A stretch of DNA of 61,602 bases, taken from assembly GCA_902790175.1 (NCBI GenBank), contig CADAQZ010000003.1:1-61602 (forward strand). The letters run 5' to 3'. Origin of the DNA: an uncultured Eubacteriales bacterium (GTDB lineage: Bacteria > Bacillota > Clostridia > Christensenellales > Aristaeellaceae). A program made the position numbers and the translations under genes. Shown here piece after piece: positions 5,520-61,602 of this stretch (positions are counted from its first letter, which is position 1; the number at the start of each line of letters is the position of its first letter). The notes beneath the pieces were generated by a model. It ran no database searches. It saw nothing but the letters and a program-made list of their open reading frames with translations, and was not told the DNA's origin.

Positions 5520-7463
5520 ATGAGAGATTATTCCGCGAGACAGAGCGCCGCCACGAGGGCCCGCATGCGCCGTCTGCGCGCGCAATATCGCAAGCGCATG
5601 ATCGTCGTCGGGGTGATTTTGTTCATCATCGGCGCGGTGGCCGGCGTGCTGGCGGGGCGCTGGTACGACAACACCCAGCCCCGGGACTCGGCCAACGAGC
5701 TGATCGACGTCACGCCGCAGCCGACGGAGCAGCCCGCCGAGCAGCAGCCCGAGACTGAAACTCAGCCCGAGACCGAAACTCAACCCGAGACTGAATCTCA
5801 GCCCGAGGCCGAACCGCAGCCGGAAGCTGAAGCAGAGACTGAGCCCCAGAAAGACCGGCCCAAGACCGAGGCCGAGCCCGATGCCGAGCCCGATGCCGAA
5901 GGCGGCGACGGCAGCTTCGGCTGGGATATGTTCGAGGGCGTCGAGTCCGCCAGCGAGGACGAGATCTTCCCCGAGGGCGGCGAGCAGGAAGTCGCCGCGC
6001 CGGAGGGCGAGGCGGAGCCCGCGTCCGCGGACGTGGCCTTCCCCGAGGTGGATGCGTCCGTCGAGGCGGAGCCTGAGGTGGAATCCGCCGTGGCGTCGGC
6101 CATCGCGTCCGCCGAGGAACCGGCTCAGGAGCAGCCCGCGGAGGAGATCCCCGTCGAGGAGGAAGTCACCCCCGCGCCGGACATGACCTCCGGCGACGTG
6201 GAGGAGTTCGATCCCACCCAGGCCGAGGTGGGCCAGGAATACCTGTCCATCGAGGATGAAAACGGCGTGGCCGAAGCGCCCGTCGAGGAAGCCCCCGTTG
6301 AGGAAGCGTCCGTCGAGGCCGCACCCGTCGAGGAAGCGCCCGTCGAGGAAGGACCTGCCGAGGTTGCGCCTGCCGAGGTTGCGCCTGCCGAGGAAGCACC
6401 TGCCGAGGAAGCGCCCGTCGAGGAAACTCCCGCGGAGGAGGCGCCCGTCGAGGAAGTGCCCGCCGCGCCCGCCGGTCCGCAGGTGATCGCCATCGTGCCG
6501 TTCGGCGAGAGCTTCACCTACCCGACCCAGATCAAGGCCGACGGAAGCGCCCGCGTGGAGGCCACCGACGAGCCGTTCGAGACCATCAACTTCACCCAGA
6601 CCATGAAGGCGTTCATGCGCCCGACCGACTTCGCCAACAAGTACTCCACCATCTACAAGCTGCAGGGCAACGAGGCCGGGGCCGGCTTTGAGCTGATCCT
6701 GGACGACTACACCGGCCAGGCCACCGTGGTGCCGCAGAATGTGGTGGACATCACGCTGCGCAGCGAGTCCGGCGACACCGTGGAGCGCGGCTACCAGCTG
6801 ATGGACGCGGAGATGGGCGGCAACTACAACGTGGCCCTGACCACCAACGTGCCCCAGACGCTGTACAAGCGCTATGAGTATTCCACCGACCGCGAGGAGA
6901 TGGCCTACCTGGTGGTGACCACCTACAACGACGGCGTGGCCCAGCAGATCCTGTTCCAGCTGGAGAGCGACGAGCCGGAGCCGGAGCCCGAGATCGTGTA
7001 CAACACGCTGCAGCGGGGCATCAAGAGCGACGAGGTCGCCGTGGTGCAGCAGCGGCTGATCGACCTGGGCTACCTGACCGGCGCGGCGGACGGCACCTTC
7101 GGCCAGATGACCGAGGACGCCATCAAGGCGGCGCAGGAGGCCTTCGGCATGGAGGCCAACGGCATCGCCGACAACGCCTTCCAGCAGAAGCTGTTTGAGG
7201 GCGTGGAGCGGCCCGTGCCCACCGAGACCGAGGCCCCGGCCGTCACCTACGACACGCTGAAGCTGAACTCCATCGGCGACAAGGTGGTGACGCTCCAGGT
7301 GCGCCTGCGCGAGCTGGGCTACTACGAGGGCAAGGCCGACGGCGGCTACGGCTACATGACCGAGGACGCCGTGAAGAAGGCCCAGCAGGCCTACGGCATG
7401 GAGGTCAACGGCGTGGCCGACGACGCCTTCCAGCAGAAGCTGTTCAGCTCGGAGCAGCCGTAA
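5520..7463 (+). CDS. Membrane-anchored protein with Glu/Pro-rich stalk and two peptidoglycan-binding domains
   Basis: 647 residues. A basic N-terminus is followed by one membrane helix (27-46), then about 260 residues of low-complexity sequence rich in Glu, Pro, Ala and Thr (QPETET-, EAPVEE-type repeats), a globular segment of about 150 residues that I do not recognise, and two PG_binding_1 domains (about 495-555 and 578-640; each has the pattern VQQRLIDLGY...DGTFG...A...FQ). The topology suggests a stalk reaching from the membrane to the wall. No catalytic domain is visible, so a structural or anchoring role is inferred. Start ATG 5520 follows AGGAGG; it stands alone behind a strong promoter. 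Confidence 0.82.
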   Translation: MRDYSARQSAATRARMRRLRAQYRKRMIVVGVILFIIGAVAGVLAGRWYDNTQPRDSANELIDVTPQPTEQPAEQQPETETQPETETQPETESQPEAEPQPEAEAETEPQKDRPKTEAEPDAEPDAEGGDGSFGWDMFEGVESASEDEIFPEGGEQEVAAPEGEAEPASADVAFPEVDASVEAEPEVESAVASAIASAEEPAQEQPAEEIPVEEEVTPAPDMTSGDVEEFDPTQAEVGQEYLSIEDENGVAEAPVEEAPVEEASVEAAPVEEAPVEEGPAEVAPAEVAPAEEAPAEEAPVEETPAEEAPVEEVPAAPAGPQVIAIVPFGESFTYPTQIKADGSARVEATDEPFETINFTQTMKAFMRPTDFANKYSTIYKLQGNEAGAGFELILDDYTGQATVVPQNVVDITLRSESGDTVERGYQLMDAEMGGNYNVALTTNVPQTLYKRYEYSTDREEMAYLVVTTYNDGVAQQILFQLESDEPEPEPEIVYNTLQRGIKSDEVAVVQQRLIDLGYLTGAADGTFGQMTEDAIKAAQEAFGMEANGIADNAFQQKLFEGVERPVPTETEAPAVTYDTLKLNSIGDKVVTLQVRLRELGYYEGKADGGYGYMTEDAVKKAQQAYGMEVNGVADDAFQQKLFSSEQP

Positions 7464-56649: not shown

Positions 56650-56782
56650 AGCACCCATCATTAAAAAGGGGCGTTTCTTGCATTTTCACGACCCCGTTTG
56701 ATTCAAAAACGGGCGACGCGCAGGCGCGGCAAATCGCGCCGGGCGCGCGAAGGGGCCCCTCCCGAAAGAAAGGTTGTTTCCG

Positions 56783-57694
56783 ATGCTCAAGTACACCGTC
56801 AAGCGCGTGCTGTTGGCCGCGGTCACCGTGTTCATCATCGCGGCGATCACGTTCTTCGCCATGAACGCTATCCCCGGCGGGCCGTTTGACAAGGAGAAGG
56901 CGCCCGACCCCGCCGTGCAGGCGGTGCTGGAGGCGCGCTTCAACCTTGACAAGCCCGTGGCCCAGCAGTTCATCATCTACCTGGGCAACCTGCTGCACGG
57001 GGATTTCGGCATCTCCCTGAAGACCGGGCGCGAGATCTCCCAGATCATAAGGGAGAAGTTCGCGGTCTCGGCCAAGCTGGGCGGCATGGCGGCGGGCTTT
57101 GCGATCCTGCTGGGGCTGATCCTGGGCTCCATCGCGGCGCTGTGCCGCAACCGCTGGCCCGACCGCGTGATCATATTCCTCACGACGTTGTTCGTGTCGG
57201 TGCCCAGCTTCGTGCTGGCGACGATCCTGCTGTTGGTGTTCGCGCTGACGCTGAAGTGGGTGGGCGTGTTCTCAACCACGAACCCGAACTACGTGCTGCC
57301 GGTCATCTCGCTGATGCTCTACCCGATGAGCTACATCACGCGCCTGACGAAGTCGTCCATGCTGGACGTGCTGGGGCAGGACTACATCCGCACGGCCCGC
57401 GCGAAGGGCGTGCGCGAGGGCTTCGTGATCTTCAAGCACGCGCTGCGCAACGCGCTGATTCCCGTCATCACCTACGTCGGCCCGATGATCGCCGGCATAC
57501 TGACCGGCTCAATGGTCATCGAGACCGTGTTCACCATCGGCGGCCTGGGCACCGAGTTCGTGCGCTCCATCAACAACCAGGACTATCCGATGATCATGGC
57601 CACCACGATCTTCCTGGCGGTGCTGATGGTCATCGCCACGCTGATCAGCGATCTGGTGTACAAGCTGGTGGACCCGAAGATTACGTTTGACTGA
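56783..57694 (+). CDS. oppB: Oligopeptide ABC transporter permease OppB/DppB type
   Basis: 303 residues with about six membrane helices. The N-terminal MLKYTVKRVLLAAVTVFIIAAITFFAMNAIPGGPFD is the OppB pattern, and the coupling EAA loop reads YIRTARAKGVREGFVIFKHALRN. It forms the membrane channel with OppC. ATG 56783 is 10 nt after GAAAGG; an in-frame TTG 9 nt upstream is less likely. The next permease starts 13 nt after the stop. Confidence 0.93.
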   Translation: MLKYTVKRVLLAAVTVFIIAAITFFAMNAIPGGPFDKEKAPDPAVQAVLEARFNLDKPVAQQFIIYLGNLLHGDFGISLKTGREISQIIREKFAVSAKLGGMAAGFAILLGLILGSIAALCRNRWPDRVIIFLTTLFVSVPSFVLATILLLVFALTLKWVGVFSTTNPNYVLPVISLMLYPMSYITRLTKSSMLDVLGQDYIRTARAKGVREGFVIFKHALRNALIPVITYVGPMIAGILTGSMVIETVFTIGGLGTEFVRSINNQDYPMIMATTIFLAVLMVIATLISDLVYKLVDPKITFD

Positions 57695-57707
57695 GGAGGG
57701 CGACGAT

Positions 57708-58784
57708 ATGACCTACAACGCGGACAAGCTGCCGAAGAAAAACCTCCTCAGCCTGCAGATCGACCCGAGGAAGTTCGAGTGGGCCTCGGACGAGGAGAAG
57801 GCGCAGCACGAGACCATGCGCGAATCGACCACGTTCTTCCGCGACGGCATGCGCAAGCTGCGCCGCAACCCGCTGGCCGTGGCCAGCCTGATCGTGCTGG
57901 TGTGCCTGGTGCTGACGATCGTGATCGTGCCGATGTTCTATCCCTACAGCTATGAGCAGATGATCTCCGTCAACGGCAAGCGCGACAAGACCGCCAAGAA
58001 CCTGGCCCCGTTCCAGTATTCCAAGAACGAGATGAAGGCCATCGAGGACGGCGCGAAGATCTTTCCGCACATCTTCGGCACCGACGAGCTGTGCCGCGAC
58101 TACTTCATCCGCGTGCTCTACGGCGCGAGGGTGTCGCTGGCGGTGGGCCTGTTCGCGAGCTTGATCGTGCTGGTGATCGGCCTGCTCTACGGCTCGATAT
58201 CCGGCTATTTCGGCGGGAAGGTGGACATGGTGATGATGCGCATCGTCGACATCATCTACTCCCTGCCCGACACATTGATGGTGATATTGCTCTCCGTGGT
58301 GCTGAACCAGGTGCTCGGCACGACGCTGCAGGGCACGGTGCTGGCGAAGGTCGGCACGAACATGATCTCGCTGTTCGTGGTGTTCGGCGTGCTCTACTGG
58401 GTGGGCATGGCGCGTCTGGTGCGCGGCCAGATCCTGTCCATCAAGACGAACGAGTACGTGCTGGCCGCCCGCGCGATGGGCGCCAAGCCCGGCCGCATCA
58501 TCCGGCGGCACATCCTGCCGAACTGCATGTCCGTCATATTCATCTCCGTGGCGCTGCAGATCCCCTCGGCCATCTTCACCGAGAGCTTCCTCTCGTTCAT
58601 CGGCCTGGGCGTGCAGGCGCCGATGCCCTCGCTGGGGTCGCTGGCCAACGCGGCGCGCGGCGGCATGCAGAGCTACCCCTACAAGATGGTGTTCCCCGCG
58701 GTCATCATCTGCCTGATCGTGCTCAGCTTCAACCTGCTGGGCGACGGCCTGCGCGACGCATTCGACCCGAAGCTGAGGAGGTAA
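57708..58784 (+). CDS. oppC: Oligopeptide ABC transporter permease OppC/DppC type
   Basis: 358 residues. A cytoplasmic N-terminal segment of about 50 residues precedes the first helix (LAVASLIVLVCLVLTIVIVPM), then an outer loop with OppC-type HIFGTDELCRDYFIRVLYGARVSL, further helices, and the EAA loop (EYVLAARAMGAKPGRIIRRHILPN). It is the second half of the peptide permease. ATG 57708 follows GAGGAGGG. Confidence 0.93.
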   Translation: MTYNADKLPKKNLLSLQIDPRKFEWASDEEKAQHETMRESTTFFRDGMRKLRRNPLAVASLIVLVCLVLTIVIVPMFYPYSYEQMISVNGKRDKTAKNLAPFQYSKNEMKAIEDGAKIFPHIFGTDELCRDYFIRVLYGARVSLAVGLFASLIVLVIGLLYGSISGYFGGKVDMVMMRIVDIIYSLPDTLMVILLSVVLNQVLGTTLQGTVLAKVGTNMISLFVVFGVLYWVGMARLVRGQILSIKTNEYVLAARAMGAKPGRIIRRHILPNCMSVIFISVALQIPSAIFTESFLSFIGLGVQAPMPSLGSLANAARGGMQSYPYKMVFPAVIICLIVLSFNLLGDGLRDAFDPKLRR

Positions 58785-58789
58785 TCGAC

Positions 58790-59799
<1,010 letters not shown>

Positions 59800-59803
<4 letters not shown>

Positions 59804-60765
59804 GCGAATACCTCCTCGAGGTACGGGATTTAAAGCAGTACTTCCCCGTGCGCACCGGCTGGTTCACCAGCAAGCCGCTGAAGGCGGTGGACGGCGTGTC
59901 CTTCGCCATCAAGCCCGGCGAGACGCTGGGCCTGGTGGGCGAGTCCGGCTGCGGCAAGACCACCGTGGGCCGCACGATATTGCACCTGTACAAGCCCACC
60001 GCGGGCGAGATCCTCTACAACGGCACGCCCGTGACGCCGCAGAACGTGCGCAACTTCCGCCAGGAGATGCAGATCGTGTTCCAGGACCCGTACTCCTCGC
60101 TGAACCCGCGCATGACGGTGTCCGACATCGTGGGCGAGCCGCTGGACATCCACGGCCTGTACAGCACCCGCGAGGAGCGCGCCGAGCGCATCACGGAGCT
60201 CTTGAACCTCGTGGGCCTGAACTCTGACCACGCGCGCCGCTACGCGCACGAGTTCTCCGGCGGCCAGCGCCAGCGCATCGGCATCGCCCGCGCCCTGGCC
60301 GTGAACCCGAAGTTCATCGTCTGCGACGAGCCGGTGAGCGCTCTGGACGTGTCCATCCAGGCGCAGGTGATCAACACGTTCGAAGACCTGCAGAAAAAGC
60401 TGGGCATCGCCTACCTGTTCATCGCCCACGACCTGCTGGTGGTGCAGCACATCAGCCAGCGCATCGCGGTGATGTACCTGGGCAGGATCGTGGAAATCGC
60501 CGACGCCGACGAGGTCATCGCGCACCCGATGCACCCTTACACGCAGTCGCTGATCTCCGCCATACCGATCCCCGACCCCAACACGGCCCGTACCCGCAAG
60601 CGCATCCCGCTGGAGGGCGACGTGCCCAGCCCGCTGAACATGCCTTCGGGCTGCGCTTTCAGGCCCCGCTGCCGCTACGCCACCGAGCGCTGCGCCAAGG
60701 AGTGCCCGAGCCTGACCGAGATCGCCCCGGGCCACCAGATCGCGTGCTGGAACCCGCACGAGTGA
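59800..60765 (+). CDS. oppF: Oligopeptide ABC transporter ATP-binding protein OppF/DppF type
   Basis: 321 residues. Walker [13 protein letters not shown]-loop [12 protein letters not shown], signature FSGGQRQRI, Walker [13 protein letters not shown] and the switch His (FIAHDLL) are intact, followed by the OppF-type C-terminus [20 protein letters not shown]. It forms the ATPase heterodimer with OppD. Translation is coupled to oppD through the ATGA overlap. A heptamer element follows, then the binding protein gene. Confidence 0.95.
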
Positions 60766-60853
60766 GTGAGGAGTTTGGAGTGTGGAGTGAGGAGTTGAAG
60801 ATAGTGTATGAAGCAAGAATAACTCCACACTCCACTCTCCACACTCCACACTG
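60766..60853. repeat. Inverted heptamer element (GGAGTGT/GAGTGAG type)
   Basis: Left arm GTGAGGAGTTTGGAG... (60766-60794), core AGATAGTGTATGAAGCAAGAA, right arm of complementary ACTCCAC heptamers (60821-60853). It sits between oppF and the binding protein gene and could lower or separate their transcription. Confidence 0.85.
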
Positions 60854-60914
60854 AAATCTGAATCTCTAACGGCCCTGCCGTTTCAGATAATATCTTTTAG
60901 GAGGAAGACCCATT

Positions 60915-61602
60915 ATGAAGAAGCTGCTTGCAGCGCTGCTGGCCATGATGATGCTCCTGGCCTGCGTCACCGCCGCCCTGGCGGACGAGGGCTCCGAGCC
61001 CGATTGGACCGAGTATGACAAGCTGATCGCCGAAGTCAAGGCCGAGACCGACTTCGAGGCCCGCGAAGCCAAGATGCACCAGGCCGAGGACATCCTGATG
61101 GATACCGGCTGCATCGTGCCGATCTACTACTACAACGACCTGTACATGCAGAAGGCTTCCGTGGATGGCATCTATGCCAACCTGTTCGGATTCAAGTTCT
61201 TCCAGTACGCCACCGTGGAGGGCTCCGACACCCTGCGCCTGAACCTGGCGTCCGAGCCGGATCACCTCGACCCCGCCCTGAACAGCTCCGTGGACGGCGC
61301 GTGCCTGGCCATCGCCTCCTTCGGCGGCCTGTACACCTACGACGCCGAGGGCAACCTGAAGCCCGACTTCGCCACCGGCTATGAGATGAGCGAGGACGGC
61401 CTGACCTACACCTTCACCATGCGCGAGGGCCTGAAGTGGTCCGACGGCGCCGACCTGACCGCCAAGGACTTCGAGTACAGCTGGAAGCGCGCCGCCGCCC
61501 CCGAGACCGCCGCGGACTACAGCTACATGTTCAACGGCATCAAGGGCTATCCCAGCGATCTGGCCGTGACCGCCTCTGAGGACGGCACCACCCTGACCGT
61601 CG
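60915..61602 (+). CDS. Oligopeptide-binding protein (SBP_bac_5), apparently beginning with the family's C-terminal segment; 3' end outside window
   Basis: 229 codons visible. A signal peptide (1-~23; LLAC at 14-17 could be a lipobox, ALAD at 21-24 a type I site) is followed by residues 32-100 that look like the C-terminal end of OppA-type proteins: YDKLIAEVKAETDFEARE, MHQAEDILMDTGCIVPIYYY, then a GFKFFQYAT tail. Only at about residue 105 does the usual mature N-terminus begin (DTLRLNLASEPDHLDPALNSS, GGLYTYDAEG, LTYTFTMREGLKWSDG, LTAKDFEYSWKRAAAPETAA). This suggests a circular permutation or a duplicated C-terminal segment. ATG 60915 follows AGGAGG. Confidence 0.85.
   Translation, partial: MKKLLAALLAMMMLLACVTAALADEGSEPDWTEYDKLIAEVKAETDFEAREAKMHQAEDILMDTGCIVPIYYYNDLYMQKASVDGIYANLFGFKFFQYATVEGSDTLRLNLASEPDHLDPALNSSVDGACLAIASFGGLYTYDAEGNLKPDFATGYEMSEDGLTYTFTMREGLKWSDGADLTAKDFEYSWKRAAAPETAADYSYMFNGIKGYPSDLAVTASEDGTTLTV

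Follow-up and report, generated by a model that had tools for sequence, protein, structure and literature searches.

The locus and its binding-protein gene

The window, the whole stretch of 61,602 nucleotides analysed here, belongs to an uncultured Eubacteriales bacterium and ends within a gene for a peptide-binding protein. Upstream on the same (forward) strand are two permease and two ATPase genes, which we take to be oppB (56774–57694, start codon uncertain), oppC (57687–58784), oppD (58790–59803, 337 amino acids from a start at 58790), and oppF (59800–60765). Homologues of these genes stand in the same order beside relatives. Between oppF and the binding-protein gene, the window harbors an inverted-repeat-like GAGTGTGGAGTG element seen by eye (60768–60860). 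The corresponding spacer of locus L039 in another assembly, which encodes the same protein, is different and harbors three 56-base tandem repeats (5722–5889).

The binding-protein reading frame (60915–61602, forward strand) is open at the contig end, and the gene continues beyond the window. By reading of the translation, residues 1–23 (60915–60983) form a signal peptide cut after ALA, with LLAC as a possible weak lipobox instead. Residues 28–100 (60996–61214) are a segment, here termed the tail, whose two helices and one strand close conventional OppA and DppE proteins; the assignment is based on phmmer matches to two Bacillus subtilis structures, 8are and 8ay0, and on a structural model. The joint between the old C-terminus and the old N-terminus was placed by alignments at about residues 101–102 (61215–61220), and matches to PDB chains assign residues 103–229 (61221–61601) to the first part of the core.

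An earlier note on this DNA, made from its letters, had read residues 32–100 as the C-terminal segment of the family and proposed recovering the missing 3′ end, inspecting the real C-terminus, and aligning the protein to OppA structures. In a search of the same genome with the SBP_bac_5 profile, the window fragment covers profile positions 2–66, and a second match covers positions 64–367 near the end of contig C20. An exact overlap of 99 bases between the ends of the two contigs supplies the missing 3′ end, so that the core runs on to residue 555 on the minus strand of C20 (L003, ORF 1480–2556). The joined protein has 555 residues and the C-terminus SGNNDVQFGR; the chain stops just before the conventional start of the tail, and no tail is found there. 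By eye, the 400 bases from the stop on contain no tail-like sequence in any of the three frames. In L039 (assembly RUG11878), a single contig carries the gene for an identical protein of 555 residues.

A circularly permuted segment order

A phmmer comparison of window residues 25–229 with PDB chains yields two pieces in swapped order. In B. subtilis OppA (8are, a chain of 525 residues), window residues 102–213 correspond to chain residues 17–128 and residues 32–97 to 455–520, while in DppE (8ay0, 521 residues) the second piece corresponds to 451–516. In a PDB-chain search with the joined protein, residues 102–551 match OppA 17–450 and residues 32–97 match 455–520, and the swap recurs with DppE and MppA. 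In the identical protein of L039, the core (positions 1–453) and the tail each occur once, with the tail first. Because every segment occurs once, the arrangement is a circular permutation: the window protein is a clean permutation of the SBP_bac_5 (OppA/DppE) fold in which the last ~73 residues follow the signal peptide and precede the old N-terminus. The reading of the earlier note thus stood, with two corrections to its borders: the tail starts at about residue 28, and the ordinary N-terminus, which had been put at about residue 105, is represented by LASEPDHLDP from residue 111.

The Pfam SBP_bac_5 model (PF00496) recognizes both the window fragment (78.2 bits) and the 554-residue homologue L014 (281.4 bits) well above its curated cut-off of 32.4. 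It covers residues 148–548 of L014 and stops before the tail; therefore, it is no test of the permutation.

The gene does run off the contig end, as it would if two gene ends had been misjoined there, but such an assembly error, which the earlier note had named as a possible refutation, is ruled out for all practical purposes by the occurrence in L039 of a letter-for-letter identical protein encoded on a single contig, by the same order in 79 of 79 loci from named genomes, and by the permuted order in the one-contig genome G1445. The earlier note had also left open whether the tail was moved or duplicated. A duplication would have placed an extra tail in front while the normal one was retained at the end, and two tandem proteins with Chloroflexi labels (L064 and L078) lend this some color. 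However, the window's own gene ends tail-less, and among the 79 named loci all 75 tail-bearing reading frames with an intact 3′ end run to core residue 450 or later of 453 and continue at most 13 residues beyond, with a tail behind the last core in none of the 75. The tail was therefore moved, and a retained second copy is ruled out with near certainty.

Predicted fold, conservation, and operon context

AlphaFold predicts a confident structure for the permuted chain (pLDDT 91.2, pTM 0.87), with blocks over residues 31–100 at 91–96. In this model the tail forms helices 32–43 and 47–63 and a strand at 67–79. The best Foldseek match is OppA 8are (E 1.6e-36; TM by target 0.73, aligned in sequence order only), and the window protein is accordingly modeled as a two-lobe protein of the OppA fold. 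OppA Asp419, which presumably holds the amino end of the peptide, corresponds to residue 531 as read off the alignment. W528, D531, D534, and P535 are invariant in all 50 aligned permuted proteins, which were chosen from 70.

The signal region varies. A strict lipobox is present in 30 of the 70 permuted proteins, a looser one in 56, and an AxA pattern in 46; at the position of the window's signal-peptide cysteine, relatives have either Cys or no Cys. As many members of the window's clade have no clear lipobox, the tether may be other than lipid. Some fronts are more divergent. The permuted protein at L113:1262-3259 begins, by reading, with what resembles a membrane helix and a coiled coil, with no cleaved signal peptide, and those at L054:5236-7602 and L107:3-2531 carry Glu/Ala-rich repeats of more than 200 residues before the tail, which are possible spacers.

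In 32 of 36 loci, oppB, oppC, oppD, and oppF are followed by the binding-protein gene, an order shared by the window (56774–60765, then the gene), and each of the 36 contains one match to the binding-protein core. L080, counted among the 32, has OppC in two frames. Of the four loci lacking the full order, three lie on stretches that are too short, and in the fourth, L216 of G1445, the binding-protein gene stands before an oppB. In two genomes whose proteins are cut at a different place (site B, below; L169 and L176), the gene adjoins the operon on the opposite strand. On this sequence evidence, the permuted protein would serve in peptide uptake: the chain would take the ordinary two-lobe peptide clamp and feed OppBC.

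Degenerate or broken copies of permuted genes do exist, one beside an intact gene in L136 and others in the frames of L158 and L196, as would be expected if the permuted protein were a functionless, decaying by-product. This is very improbable for the family, in which long intact frames occur in dozens of species and each of the 36 loci has its one core match, placed after the four opp genes in 32. NG86 dN/dS values below 1 in all seven pairs, each taken against L039, for the whole gene (0.21–0.47) as well as for the tail (0.24–0.59), also tell against decay.

Three cut places

Relatives of the window protein are cut at three places. Site A is the cut of the window protein, site B lies 80–90 residues earlier, and site C precedes site B by about 90 residues. 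Site-B proteins (L122 and L150–L153 of family f112, and L141 of G130) start at core 365–373 after the signal peptide, continue through the tail, and end at core 344–357; L149 is of the same kind and begins at a contig edge. Site-C proteins (L142 of G617 and L157 of G969) start at core 264–275 and end at core 267–274, and L158 is of this kind in two frames. No cuts at core 60–260 were found among the matches to a model of the joint, where they should have shown because the model extends about 60 residues into the core.

In the AlphaFold model, all three cut places are in or at the edge of loops. Their hand-read OppA positions are near 278–287 for site C, near 353–358 for site B, and after 440 for site A, all within what we take to be domain III, the lobe that lacks the normal chain ends. 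Since all three new ends lie in this opposite lobe, each permutation would shift the membrane tether, whether signal peptide or lipid, from lobe I to lobe II, and this is possibly what selection acts on.

Distribution among relatives

The guess of the earlier note that gut-bacterial relatives might share the permutation proved right. In a search with the window fragment, at least 37 of 199 relatives have, among the matches listed, a single match running from query residue 40 or earlier to residue 169 or later; at least 17 of the 27 same-genus relatives are among these 37, as is G130, which is cut at a different place. In named genomes, the best 80 of 534 relatives gave 79 loci, and all 79 are permuted, which is no measure of frequency because they were selected with a query spanning the joint. 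These genomes are nearly all metagenome bins, named as Clostridia/Clostridiales, Lachnospiraceae, Ruminococcaceae/Oscillospiraceae, and Christensenellaceae, with three Chloroflexi/Anaerolineaceae labels (L064, L078, and L083).

Frequencies were estimated from draws of class, phylum, order, and family genomes searched with joint model A3. At class level, a match through the joint at E up to 1e-25 was found for 4 of 391 genomes (own included), and another 4, which match with the tail alone, have the conventional order; among the joint matches, G061 and G293 are cut at site A and G535 at site B. At phylum level, 2 of 398 genomes (own included) match through the joint at 1e-18, and 5 further genomes, all conventional, match by the tail alone. 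Within the order, 13 of 396 genomes (own included) match at 1e-27. Family f58 has 23 of 299 genomes at 1e-20, all of them site A, and the family of G535 has 8 of 23 at 1e-18, six of site B and two of site C. In the family of G130 the figure is 2 of 5, one of each of sites B and A, and in that of G1228 it is 1 of 43. Overall, the permuted order is uncommon across the phylum and concentrated in certain families.

Repeated changes of order

Trees were built with all proteins rotated to one order, first with 65 rows and then with 62. Near-identical rows, truncated or broken rows (by a coverage filter, including L158 and L196), and L001, L138, and L149 were left out; L002 served as outgroup in the 65-row tree only, and L004 was dropped. 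In the 65-row tree, L121 is the sole conventional row inside the main clade, and genomes added afterwards made the mixing of orders clearer.

The best 62-row tree has 11 order changes, and its starred branches alone force 4 for site A, 8 for the conventional order, and 2 each for sites B and C; some deep branches are weak, and L157 is a long branch. In the main clade of site A, the 30 permuted proteins have 7 conventional ones scattered among them. A single clade of the 30 permuted rows is rejected (p-AU 2.1e-45; 2.2e-58 for the core alone), as is one of the 7 conventional rows (p-AU 3.1e-6), although these values flatter because the tested clades were picked after the trees had been seen. In both trees, a mostly conventional clade, whose members have an insert of ~26 residues before the tail, contains, at separate positions, L166 and L167 cut at site A, L141 cut at site B, and L142 cut at site C. 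The site-B proteins of f112 and L157 fall outside it, such that sites B and C each occur in two separate clades. Within the limits of tree support, the relatives are thus permuted at three loops, with site-A and conventional orders interspersed among orthologous operons. Parsimony suggests that the ancestor of the main clade may have been permuted, with later returns to the conventional order, although the switches may instead be repeated gains. Neither the different loops nor the repeated changes of order had been foreseen in the earlier note, whose interpretation is otherwise supported.

The pattern could also reflect replacement between two old paralogues of different order, or errors in the trees, instead of switching in place. 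Operons of this kind often undergo replacement and transfer, and several branches are weak. In the OppB+C+D+F tree (31 loci; without L212, L216, L217, L080, and L170), which lacks the permuted G1305 because its stretch is short, there are 3 switches, fewer than in the protein tree; 6 of the 8 conventional loci form one clade (98/98), a result that favors replacement, though it was obtained without G1305, and the other two stand beside the permuted L100. However, old paralogues should split the protein tree by order, and no such split is seen for the whole chain or for the core alone. The OppD+F tree, moreover, repeats the mixed groups of the protein tree. It covers 35 loci, with L212, L217, L080, and L170 but not L216, takes in G1305, and has 5 switches, of which the starred branches force 3. 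The permuted G1305 groups with the conventional G1266, G1400, G1414, and G503 in the OppD+F tree (100/100) and the protein tree (100/99), and the permuted L100 groups with the conventional G1398 and G1494 in both (98/87 and 100/95). That partners and binding protein share these mixed groups speaks for switching in place, and paralogue replacement or faulty trees are an unlikely explanation. It is because of the OppD+F partner tree that in-place switching, at first given an even chance, is now moderately favored: in the same operon, the same binding protein probably switched in place several times between conventional and permuted orders at exactly the same joint, while two other loops were permuted in separate clades.

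Possible origin and driving force

Taken together, the window gene very probably encodes the peptide-binding protein of an OppBCDF importer, a circularly permuted member of an SBP_bac_5 family that has been repeatedly permuted at three loops and whose permuted chains would fold and transport. The permutations would arise by tandem duplication followed by deletion and truncation; permutation by duplication is described as one of two main models (PMC3320104).

Adjacent permuted copies occur in 2 of the 79 named loci. The two Chloroflexi-labeled proteins (L064:3724-7593 and L078:3634-7593, about 1300 residues) each contain two tandem permuted units in the order tail–core–linker–tail–core, and the units are 92% and 85% identical, respectively. 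Their linker is long and rich in Ala, Val, and Glu, and a lipobox and a Thr/Pro/Glu-rich spacer stand in front. At L136:1827-2420 (minus-strand count), a decayed tandem copy lies beside an intact permuted gene, with its tail in one frame, the core end in another, and the middle gone. No locus examined had an intermediate in which a single core carries a tail at each end. Among repeats able to move the tail, no inverted repeat was found in L039:5700-7800, and the sole short pair spanning the right distance is a weak one of 15 bases (87%; at 6039 and 7512).

The switching may be neutral, in that these loops can accommodate new chain ends and changes of order simply follow tandem duplication. The two loci with adjacent permuted genes and the location of the three cuts in or at the edge of loops in the model agree with neutrality, to which we give slightly less than an even chance. 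Two observations tell against neutrality yet are compatible with it all the same: the three cuts fall in a single lobe, and whole clades retain permuted forms. Alternatively, because all cuts put the new ends in the opposite lobe, selection on the place of the tether to the membrane or pump may be guessed to drive the switching.

Relation to known permuted proteins and significance

B. subtilis OppA (8are) and DppE (8ay0) belong to the same fold family as the window protein, with both core and tail aligning, but have the conventional order in which the tail forms the last ~70 residues, whereas in the window protein it comes first. The operon partners of B. subtilis OppA are presumably of the same kind as those of the window gene.

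ABC binding proteins with a natural circular permutation are already known. TpMglB-2 (Tp0684) of Treponema pallidum is a circularly permuted glucose-binding protein with permuted homologues, and its authors raise anchoring as a possible reason (PMC4990184, in the part available). It is, in contrast, a Type I/cluster B sugar binder in which N-terminal strands have moved to the C-terminus and match poorly in sequence (13% identity), and the available part of that report describes one cut place (PMC4990184), compared with three among the SBP_bac_5 relatives. Pfam and Foldseek place the window protein with OppA and not with the Type I/cluster B fold, outside the TpMglB-2-like “cluster Bc”. Glycine-betaine-binding proteins are related by permutation to molybdate-binding proteins and CysB; as far as the accessible text goes, that relationship was found by structure between distant families of less than 24% identity (PMC2395249), whereas here close orthologues are involved. 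The cpRAS GTPases, unrelated in fold and function, are described as a fold family with a second site of permutation (PMC2430557).

In a preprint on permutation-blind search (PMC12667903), the words periplasmic, solute-binding, substrate-binding, ABC transporter, extracellular, and peptide-binding are absent. No description of a permuted SBP_bac_5 protein was found among the matches listed from the open PubMed Central literature, subscription papers lying outside this scope. Permuted binding proteins being already known, what is new here is circular permutation in a new class of binding protein, with repeated events and several cut places.

For annotation, the Pfam model that ends before the tail illustrates that a clean family match can conceal a rearrangement. 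To our knowledge, most known cases of natural circular permutation are single ancient events linking distant proteins. Recurrence at three places among close relatives provides natural pairs for testing how a protein alters its chain order and whether that order matters.
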